64,000 bases of DNA from an uncultured Clostridia bacterium (GTDB lineage: Bacteria; Bacillota; Clostridia; UBA1381). The stretch covers positions 62,001 to 126,000 of the forward strand of contig CANRKO010000005.1 in the NCBI GenBank assembly GCA_947631235.1, written 5' to 3'. This document shows positions 21,349 through 40,239 of the stretch, piece by piece. How positions within the stretch are numbered: position 1 is the first letter of the stretch; every line of letters begins with the position of its first letter. Below the pieces are notes generated by a model. That model saw only the letters and a program-made list of their open reading frames with translations, did not search any database and was not told the DNA's origin. A program made the translations under genes and the position numbers.

Positions 21349-23326
21349 TTCGCTTAAACTCCTTTTCGATTTCCTTTTTGCTCATTGTAATTATTATCGG
21401 TCTGCCGTGCGGGCAGGTGTTTATGTTTTTAAGACGCAGCACGCGCCTTACGAGCGACTCCATTTCCTCCGCGCTCATGTGCATATTCGCCTTGACGGAC
21501 GCCTTGCACGCAATCGTATACAAAAGTCTCTCTCGGCGGTCGGTGATAAGTTCCTTTTTATGCTCCTCGCTCTGCGCGACAAGCTCCGTAAACAGCGGCT
21601 CGACCTCGCCCAGCTCAACCCCGCCTGGCACGCTCCTTATAATCACGGCGTTTTCGCCGAATTCATCGCACTCAAAGCCCATATCGGCGAAAAGCTGCGC
21701 ACTGTCGCGGTACGACTGCATTTCCTGCGGAGTTAAATTTACCGCGACCGGCTCTATAAGTATCTGCGACATCGCTCGGCGCGACTCGATTTCTTCCTTT
21801 AACTGCTCGTAATTCAAGCGTTCGTGCGCCGCGTGCTGGTCGACGAGCATCATCTCGTCGCCCTTTTCGGCTATGATGTACGAGTCGAATACCTGTCCGA
21901 CAATCTTAAAATACTCGTCGGCGAACACGTTTACGCTTTCCTCGGTTTTAGTGTCCTCGACTTTGACGCCTTCAACTTTAGTGTCCCCGCCATTGTCGAT
22001 TTTAGTGTCCCCATAATTCGGCAAAAGCGGTTTTATTTCCTCTCTCGGCGACGCGACACTTACACGCTTGGGGACAGTAAAATCATCGTCTTTTTTAACT
22101 TTAGTGTCCCCGCTGTGCGGACGGCTCACATAAGTTTTAGTATCCCCGTTATTTTTCAGGAACGGGTTTACTCTCGGGTTGTAGTCGGGAGTGTACGGTC
22201 TTTGCGTCATATTTTTCGGCAGCGCGTCAGCCATATCGGAAAGGCTGAGTTGTTCGCGCTTTTTGCCTTCCGTCTCGCCTTCCGTCACAAACGGATTTTC
22301 CTCTTTAGTGTCCCCGCGCTCTATCCTCGGCACATTCGGCACGGCGTACAGCGCGTTTTTAACGCCGTAATACACCGCGTCGTACACCGCTTTTTCGTTC
22401 GAAAATTTTACTTCAAGCTTTGTCGGATGGACGTTTATGTCAATCTGCGACGGGTCTATCTCGATATTTAAAACAGCCATCGGGAATTTGCCTATCATTA
22501 TCTGGTTTTTGTACGCGTTTTCGAGCGCGGCTGTAACGGTGCGGCTCATAATGTAACGCTTATTCACGAAAAAGCTCTGATAATTCCGCTTTGGTCTCGC
22601 GAGCGTACCCTTACCGATAAGACCGGTGACGCGTATGCCGCCCGACTCGTACTCAACGGGAATTGTACCGTTCGCGTAATCCTTGCCATAGGCGGTATAA
22701 ATTGAATTTTTCAGCGAGCTGTCGCCGGGTGAAAACAGCTTTTCCTTGCCGTCGGTTATCAGTTTAAACGAAATTTCGGGATGCGCGAAAATAAAGCGCG
22801 TCATAATGTCGGTTATATAACCCGCCTCGGTAGCGTCACGCTTTAAAAATTTCATACGCGCGGGCGTGTTGTAAAAGAGGTTCTCGACCGTCACCGAAGT
22901 ACCGTCCGGCACTCCCGTCTCATCGCTTGACAGTATCTCTCCCCCGCGGCACGTCACGCAAACGCCCGTTTCGTCCTCGCGGCGTTTTGTGTACAGGCTT
23001 ACCTCCGCGACCGCGCCGATACTTGACAACGCCTCGCCGCGAAAGCCGAGCGTGTATATCGCGTCAAGGTCGGAGCTTTCGCGTATTTTACTCGTCGCGT
23101 GACGCAAAAAACATATCCTCGCGTCGTCCGCACCCATGCCGCTGCCGTTGTCCGACACGCGGATATACAAGCTGCCGCCGTTTTTTATCTCGACGGTTAT
23201 GACGTTCGCGCCCGCGTCTATGCTGTTTTCAACAAGTTCCTTGACGACGCTCGAAGGACGTTCAACGACCTCGCCCGCCGCTATCTTATTGGAAATCTCG
23301 GTGTCCAGCACCTTTATCTTGCCCAT
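21341..23326 (-). CDS. mutL: DNA mismatch repair endonuclease MutL
   Basis: A 661-residue MutL. The GHKL ATPase (1-330) shows ELVENSIDAGA, DNGSGMG and FRGEALSSI. The C-terminal domain has the complete metal-dependent endonuclease motif DQHAAHERLNYE (about residue 490), plus ACKASVKANMHMS and CPHGRPIII, so it nicks DNA itself, as in bacteria without MutH. The linker (about 340-470) is odd: it contains the tetrapeptide GDTK or EDTK six times, each coded by a copy of GGGGACACTAAA or a close variant, a repeat also found between genes 10 kb away. It starts 13 nt after mutS. Confidence 0.96.
   Translation of the reverse strand: MGKIKVLDTEISNKIAAGEVVERPSSVVKELVENSIDAGANVITVEIKNGGSLYIRVSDNGSGMGADDARICFLRHATSKIRESSDLDAIYTLGFRGEALSSIGAVAEVSLYTKRREDETGVCVTCRGGEILSSDETGVPDGTSVTVENLFYNTPARMKFLKRDATEAGYITDIMTRFIFAHPEISFKLITDGKEKLFSPGDSSLKNSIYTAYGKDYANGTIPVEYESGGIRVTGLIGKGTLARPKRNYQSFFVNKRYIMSRTVTAALENAYKNQIMIGKFPMAVLNIEIDPSQIDINVHPTKLEVKFSNEKAVYDAVYYGVKNALYAVPNVPRIERGDTKEENPFVTEGETEGKKREQLSLSDMADALPKNMTQRPYTPDYNPRVNPFLKNNGDTKTYVSRPHSGDTKVKKDDDFTVPKRVSVASPREEIKPLLPNYGDTKIDNGGDTKVEGVKVEDTKTEESVNVFADEYFKIVGQVFDSYIIAEKGDEMMLVDQHAAHERLNYEQLKEEIESRRAMSQILIEPVAVNLTPQEMQSYRDSAQLFADMGFECDEFGENAVIIRSVPGGVELGEVEPLFTELVAQSEEHKKELITDRRERLLYTIACKASVKANMHMSAEEMESLVRRVLRLKNINTCPHGRPIIITMSKKEIEKEFKRIV
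21947..22315. repeat. Seven copies of the GGGGACACTAAA unit inside the mutL linker
   Basis: Plus-strand TTTAGTGTCCCC or close variants at 21947, 21977, 22001, 22100, 22136 and 22304, and one reversed near-copy (GGGGACAGTAAA) at 22070-22081. The reversed copy faces the unit at 22100 and could form a hairpin with it. The six direct copies are all in the one frame that is free of stops, reading Asp-Thr-Lys. Confidence 0.85.
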
Positions 23327-32804: not shown

Positions 32805-32850
32805 TTTAGTGTCCCCCTTATTTTAGTGTCCCTGTAACTTTAGTGTCCCC
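32805..32850. repeat. Three GGGGACACTAAA units at the tsaB/rpiB junction
   Basis: Plus-strand TTTAGTGTCCC(C) at 32805, 32822 and 32839, exactly 17 bp apart. The first unit provides the tsaB stop codon (CGG GGA CAC TAA) and the last the rpiB RBS, so the whole tsaB/rpiB gap is made of the repeat. Confidence 0.9.
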
Positions 32851-33544
32851 GCTTTTCGCGTTCTTCAAGCTCTTTTTCAGCCTGAGACTTCTTTATATAG
32901 TACGGTTTCATGTCCGCGTAATTCTGCGTTTCCCCTCTTTTCGCCTTATCCATCACGGCAGCCGCAACGGACGACGCACGAGGATTTAAAGCCGCGCCGT
33001 GCGGGAAAAACGCCTTATCGCCGAGTTTGTCCGTTATATACTCTCTGTGTGCCGCCGCGCCGTCGCCGACAAAAATCGTGTCGAGGAAATTACCGCAGCT
33101 TTCAACACATTCCTCAATCGTCATAGCCTCGGGCGCGCCAAGCTCTTTAAGTCCGCCGTCCCAGATATAGCTTGCGGCGTAAACGTTATTGCCGCGCGCG
33201 TCTATTACCGGCACGATTATATGCTCCGCGTGCGGCACGTTCCACGCGAGCGCCTCAAGCGTTCCGACGCTCACAACGGGCTTGTCCGCCGCGTGCGCGA
33301 GAGCCTTAACTGTCGCAACTCCTATCCTCAGTCCCGTAAACGAGCCGGGGCCTACGCTTGCCGCATACACGTCGATGTCCCGGGGCGTAAGCTCCAAATC
33401 CGTAAGGAGCGCGTCGATCATCGGCATGATTTTCTGCGAGTGCGTTTTTTTGTGGTTAAGTATATATTCGCCCAGAAGTAAATCGTCCTCCATGACAGCC
33501 GCCGACGCGGCGTTCGCGGATGTTTCCACTGCCAGAACTCTCAT
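32840..33544 (-). CDS. tsaB: tRNA threonylcarbamoyladenosine biosynthesis protein TsaB
   Basis: ATG at 33544 (MRVLAVETSANAASAAVMED) overlaps the tsaE stop codon as TGATG, typical coupling; the longer frame adds three codons only. The protein is 234 residues with an ASKHA fold. HSQKIMPMIDALL, YAASVGPGSFTGLRIGVATV and NVPHAEHIIVPVIDARGNNV are TsaB blocks. It supports TsaD in making t6A37 in tRNAs. Its last two residues (Gly-His) and stop codon come from the GGGGACACTAAA repeat, so the C-terminus was probably redefined by that insertion. Confidence 0.93.
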   Translation of the reverse strand: MRVLAVETSANAASAAVMEDDLLLGEYILNHKKTHSQKIMPMIDALLTDLELTPRDIDVYAASVGPGSFTGLRIGVATVKALAHAADKPVVSVGTLEALAWNVPHAEHIIVPVIDARGNNVYAASYIWDGGLKELGAPEAMTIEECVESCGNFLDTIFVGDGAAAHREYITDKLGDKAFFPHGAALNPRASSVAAAVMDKAKRGETQNYADMKPYYIKKSQAEKELEEREKRGH

Positions 33545-33969
33545 CACACACACTCCCTTACCGTTATTTCCCTGTAATTTTCGCCCCTTTCGAGGTCTTT
33601 TTTTATCTCTATATCGTACCGCCTATCGGGCAGAATGTCCGCTATAAGCTGCGGCCACTCGATTACCGACACGCCCTCGCCGTACACGTACTCGTCAAAG
33701 CCGACCTCGTACATTTCGTCGCTGTCCGCTATGCGGTACACGTCGAAATGGTATAGCGGCAGCCGTCCCTCGTACTCGTTCACTATCGTGAACGTCGGGC
33801 TTGTGATAGGCTCGTCAATCCCAAGCCCCTTTGCAAGCCCCTGCACGAACGCCGTTTTGCCCGCGCCGAGGTCGCCGTAAAGGCACAATACGTCGCCCGC
33901 CGTGAGTCTCTTTGCCATATCCGCGGCAAAGGCTTGCGTTTCGTCGGGGCTGTTTGAAATAAATTGCAT
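33544..33969 (-). CDS. tsaE: tRNA threonylcarbamoyladenosine biosynthesis ATPase TsaE
   Basis: A 141-residue P-loop ATPase: LYGDLGAGKTAFVQGLAKGL is Walker A, SPTFTIVNEYEG follows, and VIEWPQLIADILPD is the conserved block near residue 105. It powers the TsaB-TsaD-TsaE complex that forms t6A. The ATG follows a repeat unit directly (GGGACACTAAA then ATG), so the repeat again supplies the RBS. Confidence 0.94.
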   Translation of the reverse strand: MQFISNSPDETQAFAADMAKRLTAGDVLCLYGDLGAGKTAFVQGLAKGLGIDEPITSPTFTIVNEYEGRLPLYHFDVYRIADSDEMYEVGFDEYVYGEGVSVIEWPQLIADILPDRRYDIEIKKDLERGENYREITVRECV

Positions 33970-34018
33970 TTTAGTGTCCCTTTATATATTTTAGTGTCCC
34001 CGTAGCTTTAGTGTCCCC
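33970..34018. repeat. Three GGGGACACTAAA units at the fhs/tsaE junction
   Basis: Plus-strand units at 33970 (one C shorter), 33990 and 34007, spaced 20 and 17 bp. They fill the gap exactly from the base after the fhs stop codon to the base before the tsaE start codon. Confidence 0.9.
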
Positions 34019-35689
34019 TTAAAACAGTCCCGTAATAACTCCGTCGGCGTCGATGTCAATGTTGTTCGCGGCGGGTACTTTGGGAAGTCCGGGCATTACC
34101 ATAATATTGCCCGTTTCCGCGACGATAAAGCCCGCGCCGTTCGATACTCTCACGGTGTTCACGGTGACGGTAAAGTCCTCGGGTCTGCCGAGAAGCGACG
34201 CGTCGTCGGACAGCGAATACTGCGTTTTCGCCATACATACGGGCTTTTTGTCAAGCCCGAGCGACTCTATTTCGCGTATCTGACGATTCGCCTTCGCGCT
34301 GTACACCGCGCCCGCGCCGCCGTAGATTTTCGTTACGATGGTGTTTATCTTGTCCTTTATGCTGTCGTTTACGTCGTAGGCGGGGGCGTAGTTGGATTTT
34401 TCGTTTTCCATGGCGTTGATTACAAGCCTTGCAAGTTCCTCGCCGCCTTCGCCGCCCTTCGCGAACACCTCGCTTAGAGCGCACTTCGCGCCGAGCGCGG
34501 CGCAGCGTTCCTTTACCGCGTCAAGTTCCGCATCGGTGTCGGTGTCAAAACGGTTGACGGCGACAACGACCGGTACGCCGTACGACTTCATATTCTCTAT
34601 ATGCTTTTCGAGGTTGCCTATACCGCGAAGGAGCGCGTCAACGTTCTCCGCTTTAAGGTCGGCTTTCGCGACGCCGCCGTTGTATTTGAGCGCTCTCACG
34701 GTCGCGACGATAACTACCGCGTCGGGTTTAAGTCCGGCGGCGCGGCACTTTATGTCCATAAACTTTTCCGCGCCCAAATCCGCGCCGAATCCCGCCTCGG
34801 TGATTGTGTAGTCGCCAAGCTTTAACGCAAGCTTTGTCGCCTGCACGCTGTTGCAGCCGTGCGCTATGTTCGCGAACGGGCCGCCGTGAATGAACGCGGG
34901 CGTATGTTCGAGCGTCTGAACGAGGTTCGGCTTAATGGCGTCCTTCATAAGAGCAGCCATCGCGCCCTGCGCGTTCAAATCCGACGCTTTTACGGGCTGT
35001 CCCGAACGGTTGTAACCAATTATAATCTCGCCGAAACGGTTTTTCAAATCCTCCAAATCCGACGCGAGACAAAGTATCGCCATGATTTCCGACGCGACCG
35101 TTATCATAAATCCGTCCTCGCGCGGCACTCCGTTAAGTCTGCCGCCCAGTCCGACGACGACGCTCCTCAAAGCGCGGTCGTTCATGTCGAGAACGCGTTT
35201 CCACACGATGTTGTTCACGTCTATATCAAGCGCGTTACCCTGGTGAATATGGTTGTCAATCATCGCGGAAAGCAGGTTGTTCGCGGCTGTTATTGCGTGC
35301 ATATCGCCTGTAAAGTGGAGGTTTATATCCTCCATCGGCACGACCTGACTGTAGCCGCCGCCTGCCGCACCGCCTTTAATGCCCATGACGGGACCGAGAG
35401 ACGGTTCGCGCAGCGCAAGCACGCACTTTTTACCCATTCTCGTGAGCGCGTCGCCCAGTCCTATTGTTGTCGTGGTCTTGCCTTCGCCGGCGGGCGTCGG
35501 GTTTATCGCCGTAACGAGCACAAGCTTGCCGTCCTCGTTATCCTTTACTCTGTTCCACAGTTCGCCCGATACCTTCGCCTTGTACTTTCCGTAATATTCA
35601 AGTTCGTCCTCGGTTATTCCGACTGACGCCGCTATTTCGCGGATGTGTTTCATTTCCGCCCCCTGAGCGATTTCAATGTCCGATAACAT
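34019..35689 (-). CDS. fhs: Formate-tetrahydrofolate ligase
   Basis: A 556-residue enzyme making 10-formyl-THF from formate, THF and ATP. The P-loop is [20 protein letters not shown] (about 63-82). [38 protein letters not shown] and [15 protein letters not shown]-type [14 protein letters not shown] are diagnostic. It works in one-carbon metabolism and in acetogens feeds the methyl branch; no other Wood-Ljungdahl gene is visible here. Strong AGGAGG RBS. First gene of the tsaE-tsaB-rpiB run. Confidence 0.98.
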
Positions 35690-37286: not shown

Positions 37287-37419
37287 ATTCCATTCCCGCC
37301 AATCTATTTTATCTCATTTTGGAGCAAAGGTCAATACAAATGTTACAATTTCTTTTAATTTATATAATTTTTTTGTAAATTATGTAACTTTTTTGTAACA
37401 TTCTGTCGATTTTTGTAAT

Positions 37420-40239
37420 TTAATCTATATCCTCGGTGAAGTCGGGAATGTTTACGCCGTTCACGTACTCGTTGTTCGGAACGGGGATATTCTCGTCCAT
37501 TTCGGGCCCGATATAGAAACCCGTCTGCGTGCACTGGTTGTACGCCGTGTTCTGGAACGCGACGGACAGGCGGTACACGTGGTCGTGCATGAGCGTGTAG
37601 AACTTATGGTGCGTAACGTCGGTAGTGGTGTACACGCGCAACTCCGTGTCGTCCTCATTGCGCCAAATCGCCTCTTCGCGCCAGTCGCCCAATATGTCAG
37701 CCTGAATACAGGGGTTGCCCTTTTTCCAGTTGTTTGAAAGCGTGCCGGCGGGGTCTAAGATTGTGACAAGCTTGTTGTTTTCGTAATCCCACTTGTAAAT
37801 TTTCGGGTAGCCGTAGCCCTTCTCCTCGACAAATTCGTGGTCGAGCAGTTCGCGGAGAAGGTCGCCGTCCCACCATATGGCGAACGCGATAGATTCGGGG
37901 CCGTGCTCGTTAATCATCTCGCCTTCCATTGTGAAGATGCCGTCGTCCATTACCCAGCACTGGTTGCCGACGTAGCGCGGGTCTATCTTCGCGCACAGTC
38001 CGCGCGTCGTGTCGCGTCCCGTGTAGAAGCCCCACTTTATCTCGCCCGTCGCGGGGTCGCGCACCTCGTAGCCGAGTTCCGCATCAAGTTCCTCGTGTAT
38101 CTGGAAGTAGTCGAGGTTCGGCGTTTTCGGCGTGAAGTTGCCGAGGTTGCACGTGTCGCCGTGCATGAGACCGGTCGAGTATATGCCCGTGCCGTCGTCG
38201 TCAACAGCCATCGCACCGTATACGATTTCATCGAGACCGTCGCCGTCTATATCGCCGACGCCGAGGTTGTGGTTGCCCTGCGCGGTAAATTCTATGTTCT
38301 GATCCTTGTTCGCGAGGAATTTCCAACGCTTAACAAGCTTATTGTCTATTACGTCGTACGCCACAAGCACCGTCGGGCAACCGTGGTCGTAATAGCCGCG
38401 GCACATTACGACGCTCGGGTTCTCGCCGTCAAGGTACGCCACGCACGCGAGGAAACGGTCAACGCGGTTGCCCCAGTTGTCGCCCCACTCGATAATGTTG
38501 CCGCGCGGGGGGTCGTATTCAACGGTGTCGAGAGCCGCGCCCGTCAAGCCGTCGAACAGCGTCAGGTACTCGGGACCGTCTATAATAAATCCGTCCTTGT
38601 TTCTGTAGTCCGCGTCCTTGTCGCCTATCACATTGCCAACGCCGTCAACCGTGCCGTCCGCGGTTTTGCATACCATTTCGGATTTGCCGTCGTTGTTGAA
38701 GTCGTAAACCATGAACTGCGTGTAGTGCGCACCACTCCTGATGTTTTTGCCGAGATTTATTCTCCAAAGGCGTTTGCCGTTTAATTTGTACGCGTCAAGT
38801 ATGCACTCGCCGGTGTAACCCTTGTGCGAGTTGTCCTTGCCGTTCGCGTCCCAGCGGAGAATTATCTCGTACTCGCCGTCGCCGTCAAGGTCGCCGACCG
38901 ACGCGTCGTTCGCGGTGTACTCGTAAACCTTGCCGCTTACGGGGTCTGTCCACGGGGCGGGCTTGTCGAGCGGTATCGAGAGGTATTCCTTATCCCACGG
39001 CTTTACCTCACAGCCGTGCTTTTCCGCCTTTCCGTCCTTTACGGCTTTTATCGTGTAAACATCGGTCTGCTTGCCGTCCTTGTCGAGATAGTTTGTCGAG
39101 TCGGTTATTATATCGGTTATTCTGTCGCCGTTTCTGTACACGACAAAGTTTATACCCTGCTCGTACTCGTAGGCGTTTAGTCTCCAGCTCAGGAATATGC
39201 CGTTCTCGGTCGGAACGGCCACAGCGCCGCGACCGAGCGTTTCCATCTTGTACTTCTTCGGCTCCGCCTCCATATCTATCGTAACGTCCGCGCGCACCGA
39301 TTTACCGCTTGTTGTGACAGCCTCCACGCCGTACACGTAAGGCACGTTCGTCACGACCTTGTCGTCTATGTAATCGGTGTCGGTCGTGCGCGCAATAAGC
39401 TTGTATATGCCGTAGGGGGCTTTGCGGTAAATATTGTACCAAACGGCTGAATCCGTTCCGTCCCACACGAGCGCGACGGAATTTGCAGTTTCCTTCGCGT
39501 CGAGATTTTCTATCTTAGCCGTGACCTCGCCGCCGTCTACCACGGTTACGTTTACCGACGACGTTTCACCGAGGAAATTCTGCGCGTAAAGCGGGCAGAC
39601 GGTATACTCGAACTCCTGCGCAAGCTCTACGGTGTCGTCCGTAAATTCCTCGCCCGCGACCTCGGTACAAACCTCGATTTCGTGATTTCTCTTGTGGTTT
39701 ATACGCTGTAAGCGGTAACCCGTAACATCGTCAGCCTTATCCCACGTAAGCTTTACCGCCGCGCCGCTGCGTTTTGCGGTGACGCTGCTCGTAAGATTTG
39801 TAACGCCGACGGTACGCTTTATGGCTATTTCTATACTGTTAAGCGCGGTGTGACGGCTTGACTCAAACGCGAATTCAATCTTTCCGTCCGTCACCTCGAC
39901 CGTGTACACTCTCTCGGCAACGACGTTGCAGCGCACCCATACGCGCTTTCTGTCGCCGTTTATCGAGTAGCGCACAACGGTGTCGCCCTCGTCGTCATAG
40001 TCGCCGGTCGATACGCGCACGATATATGTTCCGTTTTCCATATCAACTCTGAATGTATTTTCATCGACAAAAAGGAAATCGCGGTTTAATTCCTTCTCAC
40101 CGTCCGGTCTTTCGACAGCCGATGCCGTTTTAATGAGACCGTAGCCTTTTTCCGGTGTGTAAAGTGTGGTGTCCGTAACCTTTGTGCAGCCGTTTTGAAC
40201 GGTTTTCTTTCCGAAATCAAAGCTTGCTTTTGTAAACAT
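37420..40239 (-). CDS. Family PL11 rhamnogalacturonan lyase, no signal peptide
   Basis: A 939-residue protein. Residues 1-145 are a beta-sandwich carbohydrate-binding-like domain (FDFGKKTVQNGCTKV, then GTYIVRVSTGDYDDEGDTVV). FnIII-like modules follow at about 150-235 and 240-325. The PL11 beta-propeller begins near 335 (LGRGAVAVPTENGIFLSWRL) and has several calcium-loop repeats: VGDLDGDGEYEIILRWD, YDFNNDGKSEMVCKTADGT and GVGDIDGDGLDEIVYGAMA. It cleaves rhamnogalacturonan I backbone by beta-elimination. No N-terminal signal sequence is seen, so it is cytoplasmic like Bacillus YesX or exported in another way. RBS AAAAGG. Confidence 0.88.
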   Translation of the reverse strand: MFTKASFDFGKKTVQNGCTKVTDTTLYTPEKGYGLIKTASAVERPDGEKELNRDFLFVDENTFRVDMENGTYIVRVSTGDYDDEGDTVVRYSINGDRKRVWVRCNVVAERVYTVEVTDGKIEFAFESSRHTALNSIEIAIKRTVGVTNLTSSVTAKRSGAAVKLTWDKADDVTGYRLQRINHKRNHEIEVCTEVAGEEFTDDTVELAQEFEYTVCPLYAQNFLGETSSVNVTVVDGGEVTAKIENLDAKETANSVALVWDGTDSAVWYNIYRKAPYGIYKLIARTTDTDYIDDKVVTNVPYVYGVEAVTTSGKSVRADVTIDMEAEPKKYKMETLGRGAVAVPTENGIFLSWRLNAYEYEQGINFVVYRNGDRITDIITDSTNYLDKDGKQTDVYTIKAVKDGKAEKHGCEVKPWDKEYLSIPLDKPAPWTDPVSGKVYEYTANDASVGDLDGDGEYEIILRWDANGKDNSHKGYTGECILDAYKLNGKRLWRINLGKNIRSGAHYTQFMVYDFNNDGKSEMVCKTADGTVDGVGNVIGDKDADYRNKDGFIIDGPEYLTLFDGLTGAALDTVEYDPPRGNIIEWGDNWGNRVDRFLACVAYLDGENPSVVMCRGYYDHGCPTVLVAYDVIDNKLVKRWKFLANKDQNIEFTAQGNHNLGVGDIDGDGLDEIVYGAMAVDDDGTGIYSTGLMHGDTCNLGNFTPKTPNLDYFQIHEELDAELGYEVRDPATGEIKWGFYTGRDTTRGLCAKIDPRYVGNQCWVMDDGIFTMEGEMINEHGPESIAFAIWWDGDLLRELLDHEFVEEKGYGYPKIYKWDYENNKLVTILDPAGTLSNNWKKGNPCIQADILGDWREEAIWRNEDDTELRVYTTTDVTHHKFYTLMHDHVYRLSVAFQNTAYNQCTQTGFYIGPEMDENIPVPNNEYVNGVNIPDFTEDID

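Follow-up and report, generated by a model that had tools for sequence, protein, structure and literature searches.

The closest described systems are the repetitive extragenic palindromic (REP) sequences with their REP-associated tyrosine transposases (RAYTs), the DNA uptake sequences (DUS) of Neisseria with the uptake signal sequences (USS) of Pasteurellaceae, and the IS200/IS605 insertion sequences with their transposase TnpA. The nuclease of domesticated RAYTs is usually assumed to move the REPs. A Y---NP tyrosine motif is the signature of class 2 RAYTs (PMC6006769), while Neisseria uptake sequences combine stringent conservation with gains that face gaps in other genomes (PMC2397512). Here we describe a 12-bp unit, GGGGACACTAAA, found in a 64,000-nt stretch (the window; contig CANRKO010000005.1, positions 62,001 to 126,000) of the 2.09-Mb genome of a gut bacterium, G000, together with a RAYT-like gene of the same genome. 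With a probability of roughly 60%, we read the unit as the word recognised by a REP/RAYT-type system in which the transposase was disarmed but retained.

Unit arrays at two gene junctions

Read on the minus strand, the 49-bp gap between fhs and tsaE consists of three units and two spacers, running from the fhs stop codon TAA (34021-34019) through GGGGACACTAAA, GCTAC, GGGGACACTAAA, ATATATAAA and GGGACACTAAA to the tsaE ATG (33969). A second array, of three units at 17-bp spacing, lies at the tsaB/rpiB junction (32805-32849). The features are:

34019..35689, minus strand: fhs, the gene upstream of the first array
34007..34018, minus strand: fhs/tsaE unit 1, GGGGACACTAAA, immediately 3' of the fhs stop codon
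33990..34001, minus strand: fhs/tsaE unit 2, GGGGACACTAAA
33970..33980, minus strand: fhs/tsaE unit 3, GGGACACTAAA with an A before it, adjoining the tsaE ATG and giving a GGGA Shine-Dalgarno-like stretch
33544..33969, minus strand: tsaE, the gene downstream of the first array
32839..32850, minus strand: tsaB/rpiB unit 1
32822..32832, minus strand: tsaB/rpiB unit 2
32805..32816, minus strand: tsaB/rpiB unit 3, adjoining the rpiB ATG

The first-pass annotation had reported this triplet with its spacings of 17 and 20 bp, and the last unit abutting the ATG at both tsaE and rpiB; the minus-strand reading of the two junctions agrees on each point. Its further statement that units occupy every base of the fhs/tsaE junction applies only when the 14 bp of spacer are counted with the 35 bp of unit. 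Across the window, matches with at most one mismatch number 14 against 0.73 expected, and a chance origin is excluded.

Both junctions carry units – three or four at fhs/tsaE, two or three at tsaB/rpiB – only in G000, G005, G008, G010 and G011 among the members of the genus. The remaining members read have none at either place, and their fhs-tsaE gap is mostly 1-12 bp (longer in G002, likewise unit-free). This makes the arrays net insertions confined to one clade, and it bears out the annotation's suggestion of insertion or expansion. The alignment of junctions that it had called for shows units gained and lost: their number varies between close species by loss or gain of a unit with its spacer, which fits recombination and is not the invariance of a plain ribosome-binding site. 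Tandem slippage was rejected as the sole origin of the arrays, because the spacers differ. The idea of 'defined sites' is not supported, since 3' hairpins, the linkers of proteins and their folded cores hold units as well.

An ATG adjoins a unit in six genes of the G000 stretches read (tsaE, rpiB, the RAYT-like gene, rsfS and two others). Their common phase arises because the 3' end of the unit itself (...ACTAAAAT followed by G) sets it, and the unit can, by its sequence, be used as a ribosome-binding site, with GGGG eight bases 5' of the ATG. Selection for such a site, as the annotation tentatively proposed, cannot account for a motif located mainly elsewhere; we regard the use in translation as a local side effect. 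An AT-rich 20-bp tandem repeat, detected by Tandem Repeats Finder at 37347-37422 of the window, is unrelated to the unit.

Settings and conservation across the genome

The annotation had held that its repeat would lose its standing if the word were absent elsewhere: the exact 11-mer GGGACACTAAA occurs 128 times in G000, against 0 for the reversed word, and 27-167 times per genome in the other genus members (15/15), so that chance is again excluded. The G000 copies form about 42 clusters (counted by hand, from listings split by next base) and take four settings: palindromes at stop codons, intergenic direct arrays, in-frame units in linkers and units within folded enzymes. The palindromes are perfect, ACGGGGACACTAAAATTTTAGTGTCCCCGT, 24-30 bp long and 3' of stop codons, commonly with additional half units, and their RNA folds strongly (-22.2 kcal/mol, z -6.3). 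Spacing in the direct arrays is mainly 14-18 bp, with differing spacer sequences. Intragenic copies make up 47 of the 128 (about 37%; a manual count after correction of false calls of open reading frames), all but three of them sense-oriented. Several coincide with what we take to be natural near-matches, such as the GDTKV motif of HypE.

The unit has no internal palindrome, and GGGG, rather than a GTAG-type tag, stands at the tag position. Within a 464-kb sample there is no excess of 11-mers with one or two mismatches; the word is therefore sharp. No copy of the palindrome was found in IMG/VR, and de novo word counting in a 176-kb sample of G022 gave no comparable repeat. GGGACATAAAA was rejected as a further dialect, its enrichment being weak at most.

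The densest sets of units lie in the cobalamin/tetrapyrrole biosynthesis operon, with 20, 15 and 9 exact units in L062 (G033:C16:20000-39000), L063 (G018:C5:18000-36000) and L064 (G014:C1:49000-60000), respectively, in both orientations and at most three per gene; in G033, one third of the genome's units fall within less than 1% of the genome. Metabolic operons of G000 dense in intragenic units include trpC, trpF and trpA (L047), hypD and hypE (L045) and a U32 peptidase gene (L042), to which L054 adds a GTPase that, named from sequence, resembles HydF.

Within genes, units have arisen by two routes. In genus codon alignments, unit-less relatives show no gaps opposite the sites in TrpA and TrpF, most of those in TrpC and most of those in the U32 peptidase; units in these folded proteins therefore arose by substitution. 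Opposite the units of the MutL linker, and opposite those of a U32 loop (four in G006), relatives have gaps; the loop units arose by insertion, and those of the linker may have done so. The linker is a third unit-bearing site of the window, absent from this entry of the annotation: six sense units lie in it (21947-22314), four of them exact and two with one mismatch, and they are translated as GDTK or EDTK:

22304..22315, minus strand: in-frame unit, GDTK
22136..22146, minus strand: in-frame one-mismatch unit, GGGATACTAAA, GDTK retained
22100..22111, minus strand: in-frame unit, GDTK
22001..22012, minus strand: in-frame unit, GDTK
21977..21988, minus strand: in-frame unit, GDTK
21947..21957, minus strand: in-frame one-mismatch unit, AGGACACTAAA, EDTK

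The five-species clade was compared with the other genus members in six genes, at codons that agree in their first two bases: identity at four-fold third positions is 78% (550/706) within units versus 44% (13548/30495) outside, the excess running in the same direction in 6/6 genes. Conservation extends to antisense units – two sites in trpC (10/12 and 8/12 species) and one in trpA (11/12) – and the recognised molecule is therefore probably DNA rather than mRNA. RNA-level regulation was rejected as a general role on account of these antisense units and of the tsaE array, for whose RNA folding found no structure.

The same observations bear on one alternative, namely that the unit is a plain translation and termination signal, a local ribosome-binding consensus plus a terminator stem. 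The six start codons that adjoin a unit and the strongly folding palindromes speak for it, but units lie mostly away from starts, many are intragenic and some antisense, tsaE and rpiB do without units in relatives, and the tsaE array is unstructured as RNA. The conserved intragenic and antisense copies largely refute this explanation, which we hold to be highly improbable.

The RAYT-like gene and its link to the unit

Outside the window, a 172-aa open reading frame with units 5' of it (G000:C2:180641-181159; L154, L035) encodes a RAYT-like protein, so that the repeat both adjoins a RAYT gene and is dispersed genome-wide. One orthologue is present in each of the 16/16 genus genomes – G002 has a second, distant match of 251 aa – and relatives occur in 34/37 genomes of the family; no full-length plasmid or phage match was found. 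An AlphaFold2 model (m9dea646ea125) predicts a domain at residues 1-114, with pLDDT around 90 in most blocks, followed by a disordered linker. The modelled domain matches the Y1 HUH-nuclease fold, with IS608 TnpA (2a6m) at Z 12.2, E. coli RAYT 4er8 at Z 10.7 over 115 residues and the first unrelated row at 7.8; these matches came from the fold search, a RAYT profile having given no sequence match in the PDB. The profiles REP_Tyr_transpos (NCBIfam NF047646) and Y1_Tnp each match 5/29 family members, whereas neither Pfam nor NCBIfam gives a match for the protein of G000. The domain has a dN/dS of 0.00-0.05 among four close species, and the gene is therefore under strong purifying selection and working.

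Its catalytic residues are gone. None of the 30 family members read has the histidines of HuH together with the tyrosine of Y---NP: Y---NP is absent from 30/30, while HuH is absent from all genus members read and survives in just two of the 30, G016 and G029, as HVH. At the position of NHVH in an intact relative, G000 has KTEIRMAV. Relatives from Sporomusa, Lederbergia and Coriobacteriaceae keep both motifs, as do most of those from Treponema, and GGGACA-type repeats adjoin some of these intact outgroup genes (GGGGACGGTTCT in Sporomusa, GGGACAG hairpins in Treponema). The REP-associated transposase for which the first-pass annotation had proposed a search is thus represented, by a RAYT relative in every genus member, but with both catalytic motifs missing simple REP/RAYT transposition is unsupported. 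On catalytic and extragenic grounds alike, this is not a plain REP/RAYT system.

The RAYT-like proteins (L154 1504-2019 and orthologues) end in an invariant WLL-type tail, LPSWLL in most short forms and LSVWLL in most long forms, preceded by a disordered linker of Lys, Pro and Glu; conservation of the tail suggests a docking partner. The RAYT-like gene is followed directly by a polysaccharide deacetylase gene (L225 5588-6340), and the sequence at this place is similar in other genus members.

Standard REPIN transposition, whether by an active RAYT or by another Y1 enzyme in trans, would explain a repeat that flanks a single-copy RAYT gene and forms palindromic doublets, and some relatives do have intact Y1 proteins. 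A separate intact family with HIH and YVDENP motifs is represented by L150 (G005:C2:84565-84879) and L153 (G010:C49:12866-13168); it is patchy in the five-species clade and was not found in G000. Against such transposition stand the loss of HxH and Y---NP from the genus RAYT in all sequences read and the failure of Y1_Tnp matches to follow unit copy number, with none in G011 beside 165 units and eight in G058 beside no units. Moreover, 37% of copies are intragenic, and many are gap-free substitutions in folded cores, which transposition could not produce. We consider this explanation improbable. The IS200 TnpA of G000 itself (156 aa) was rejected as a mobiliser: it is canonical, a single match, 3.7 kb from the nearest unit and uncorrelated with copy number.

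The unit recurs in the promoter of the RAYT-like gene. In 14/14 genus promoters aligned, and also in G008, an exact inverted unit, TTTAGTGTCCC, stands about 13 bp upstream of a conserved extended -10 (TGTGnTAnnAT). The sister genera g4 and g6 have TTTTGTGTCCC at this position, and the A dialect matching their promoter form, GGGACACAAAA, is commoner than the T form in G024, G027, G028 and G017. Units of the two dialects number 15-179 per family genome with a short RAYT, 0-25 with a long form, and 0, 0 and 2 in the three without a RAYT match (G030, G032, which is 97% complete, and G035); genomes from the order's remaining families hold 0-4. In their combined count of the two dialects, family genomes that carry a RAYT exceed all other genomes (Mann-Whitney p ~1e-9). 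These comparisons take no account of phylogeny, and the co-occurrence is supportive, not proof.

It also counts in judging whether the units are sites of some other DNA-binding protein, a regulator or chromosome organiser, to which the RAYT link is coincidental. Conservation independent of orientation would suit such a protein, as would a sharp motif without an excess of near matches; yet all RAYT promoters read in the genus hold the exact unit, and RAYT and units are absent together from G030, G032 and G035. We give this possibility little credence.

A probable site-plus-binder pair compared with known systems

Catalytic loss is genus-wide and shared with sister genera, and arrays at the two junctions are confined to one clade; by parsimony, the arrays were therefore gained after the loss, and the RAYT-like protein's own HuH reaction was therefore not their maker. 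In the mechanism that we favour, the RAYT-fold protein would bind GGGGACACTAAA, including the inverted copy 5' of its own -10 box, through which it may regulate its own expression. Sites would persist genome-wide wherever they are tolerated – as palindromes at stops, arrays in gaps, GDTK insertions in linkers and substitutions in folded proteins – and the last unit of an intergenic array could also act as a ribosome-binding site. At fhs/tsaE, 3-4 units were inserted as an array in the ancestor of the five species, after catalytic loss; the most likely route is recombination or template switching, with the sites then retained because the protein binds them. Unit binding, autoregulation, a selective benefit and the mechanism of gain are inferred. 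We class the system as a REP/RAYT variant that likely works as a site with its binder.

An alternative is that the unit is an uptake sequence of the DUS/USS kind: transformation would favour the word, copies would build up by recombination or mutation, and inverted pairs would be reused as terminators. The exact 12-mer, genus dialects, inverted pairs at gene ends, coding copies and strong conservation all suit it; conservation and gap-facing gains are Neisseria-type signatures (PMC2397512), and the cobalamin operon is densely covered in two relatives (15-20 units in ~13 kb). Uptake, however, needs no tight triplets and accounts neither for the RAYT association nor for the conserved promoter unit, and 27-167 clustered copies per genus genome contrast with hundreds to thousands of dispersed ones. 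We think uptake unlikely as a full account, and a role in DNA exchange may be regarded as a live alternative. More tentatively, the disarmed-transposase reading can be extended: a nuclease-dead binder derived from a transposase may keep and gain its own words through recombination and selection, the words then serving as tags for chromosomal addressing, silencing or DNA exchange and not as a transposon.

Several points weigh against a disarmed transposase kept with its words. The intact Y1 proteins of G005 and G010 could act in trans, and alignments of the mutL linker are loose, leaving insertion versus substitution uncertain there. Every genome is a draft assembly, with completeness of 67-99%, and two of the three that lack a RAYT match reach only 73-74%. 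In five RAYT-carrying family genomes (G016, G021, G022, G031 and G036) the two dialects tested supply no more than 0-6 units, in some long-form genomes no dialect is detectable, and shared ancestry confounds the association seen across genomes.

The case bears on the host role of domesticated RAYTs, as repeats have spread and are conserved at the DNA level in genes despite the partner's catalytic loss. It would offer a natural system in which RAYT binding is separated from cutting, and so a means of asking what binding serves; one member, Lachnospiraceae bacterium MD329 (L233), may be in culture.

With the REPtrons and REPINs of E. coli and Pseudomonas and their RAYT (TnpAREP), the system shares a single-copy RAYT-fold gene beside the repeat, dispersed short repeats, inverted hairpin doublets, lineage-specific dialects and housekeeping-like inheritance. 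It differs in that HuH and Y---NP are lost, a GTAG tag is lacking, the unit is a 12-mer half-site rather than a palindrome, 37% of copies are intragenic, some by substitution, and gain continues after catalytic loss. Neisserial DUS and Pasteurellaceae USS likewise consist of a short exact word that occupies permissive coding positions, forms inverted pairs at gene ends, is conserved at the DNA level and comes in dialects, whereas the present unit has far fewer copies, strong triplet clustering and a tie to a RAYT-like gene. IS200/IS605 TnpA shares its fold, as predicted, with the RAYT-like partner, which differs in having no catalytic residues, no signs of mobility, and an added disordered linker with a conserved LPSWLL tail.
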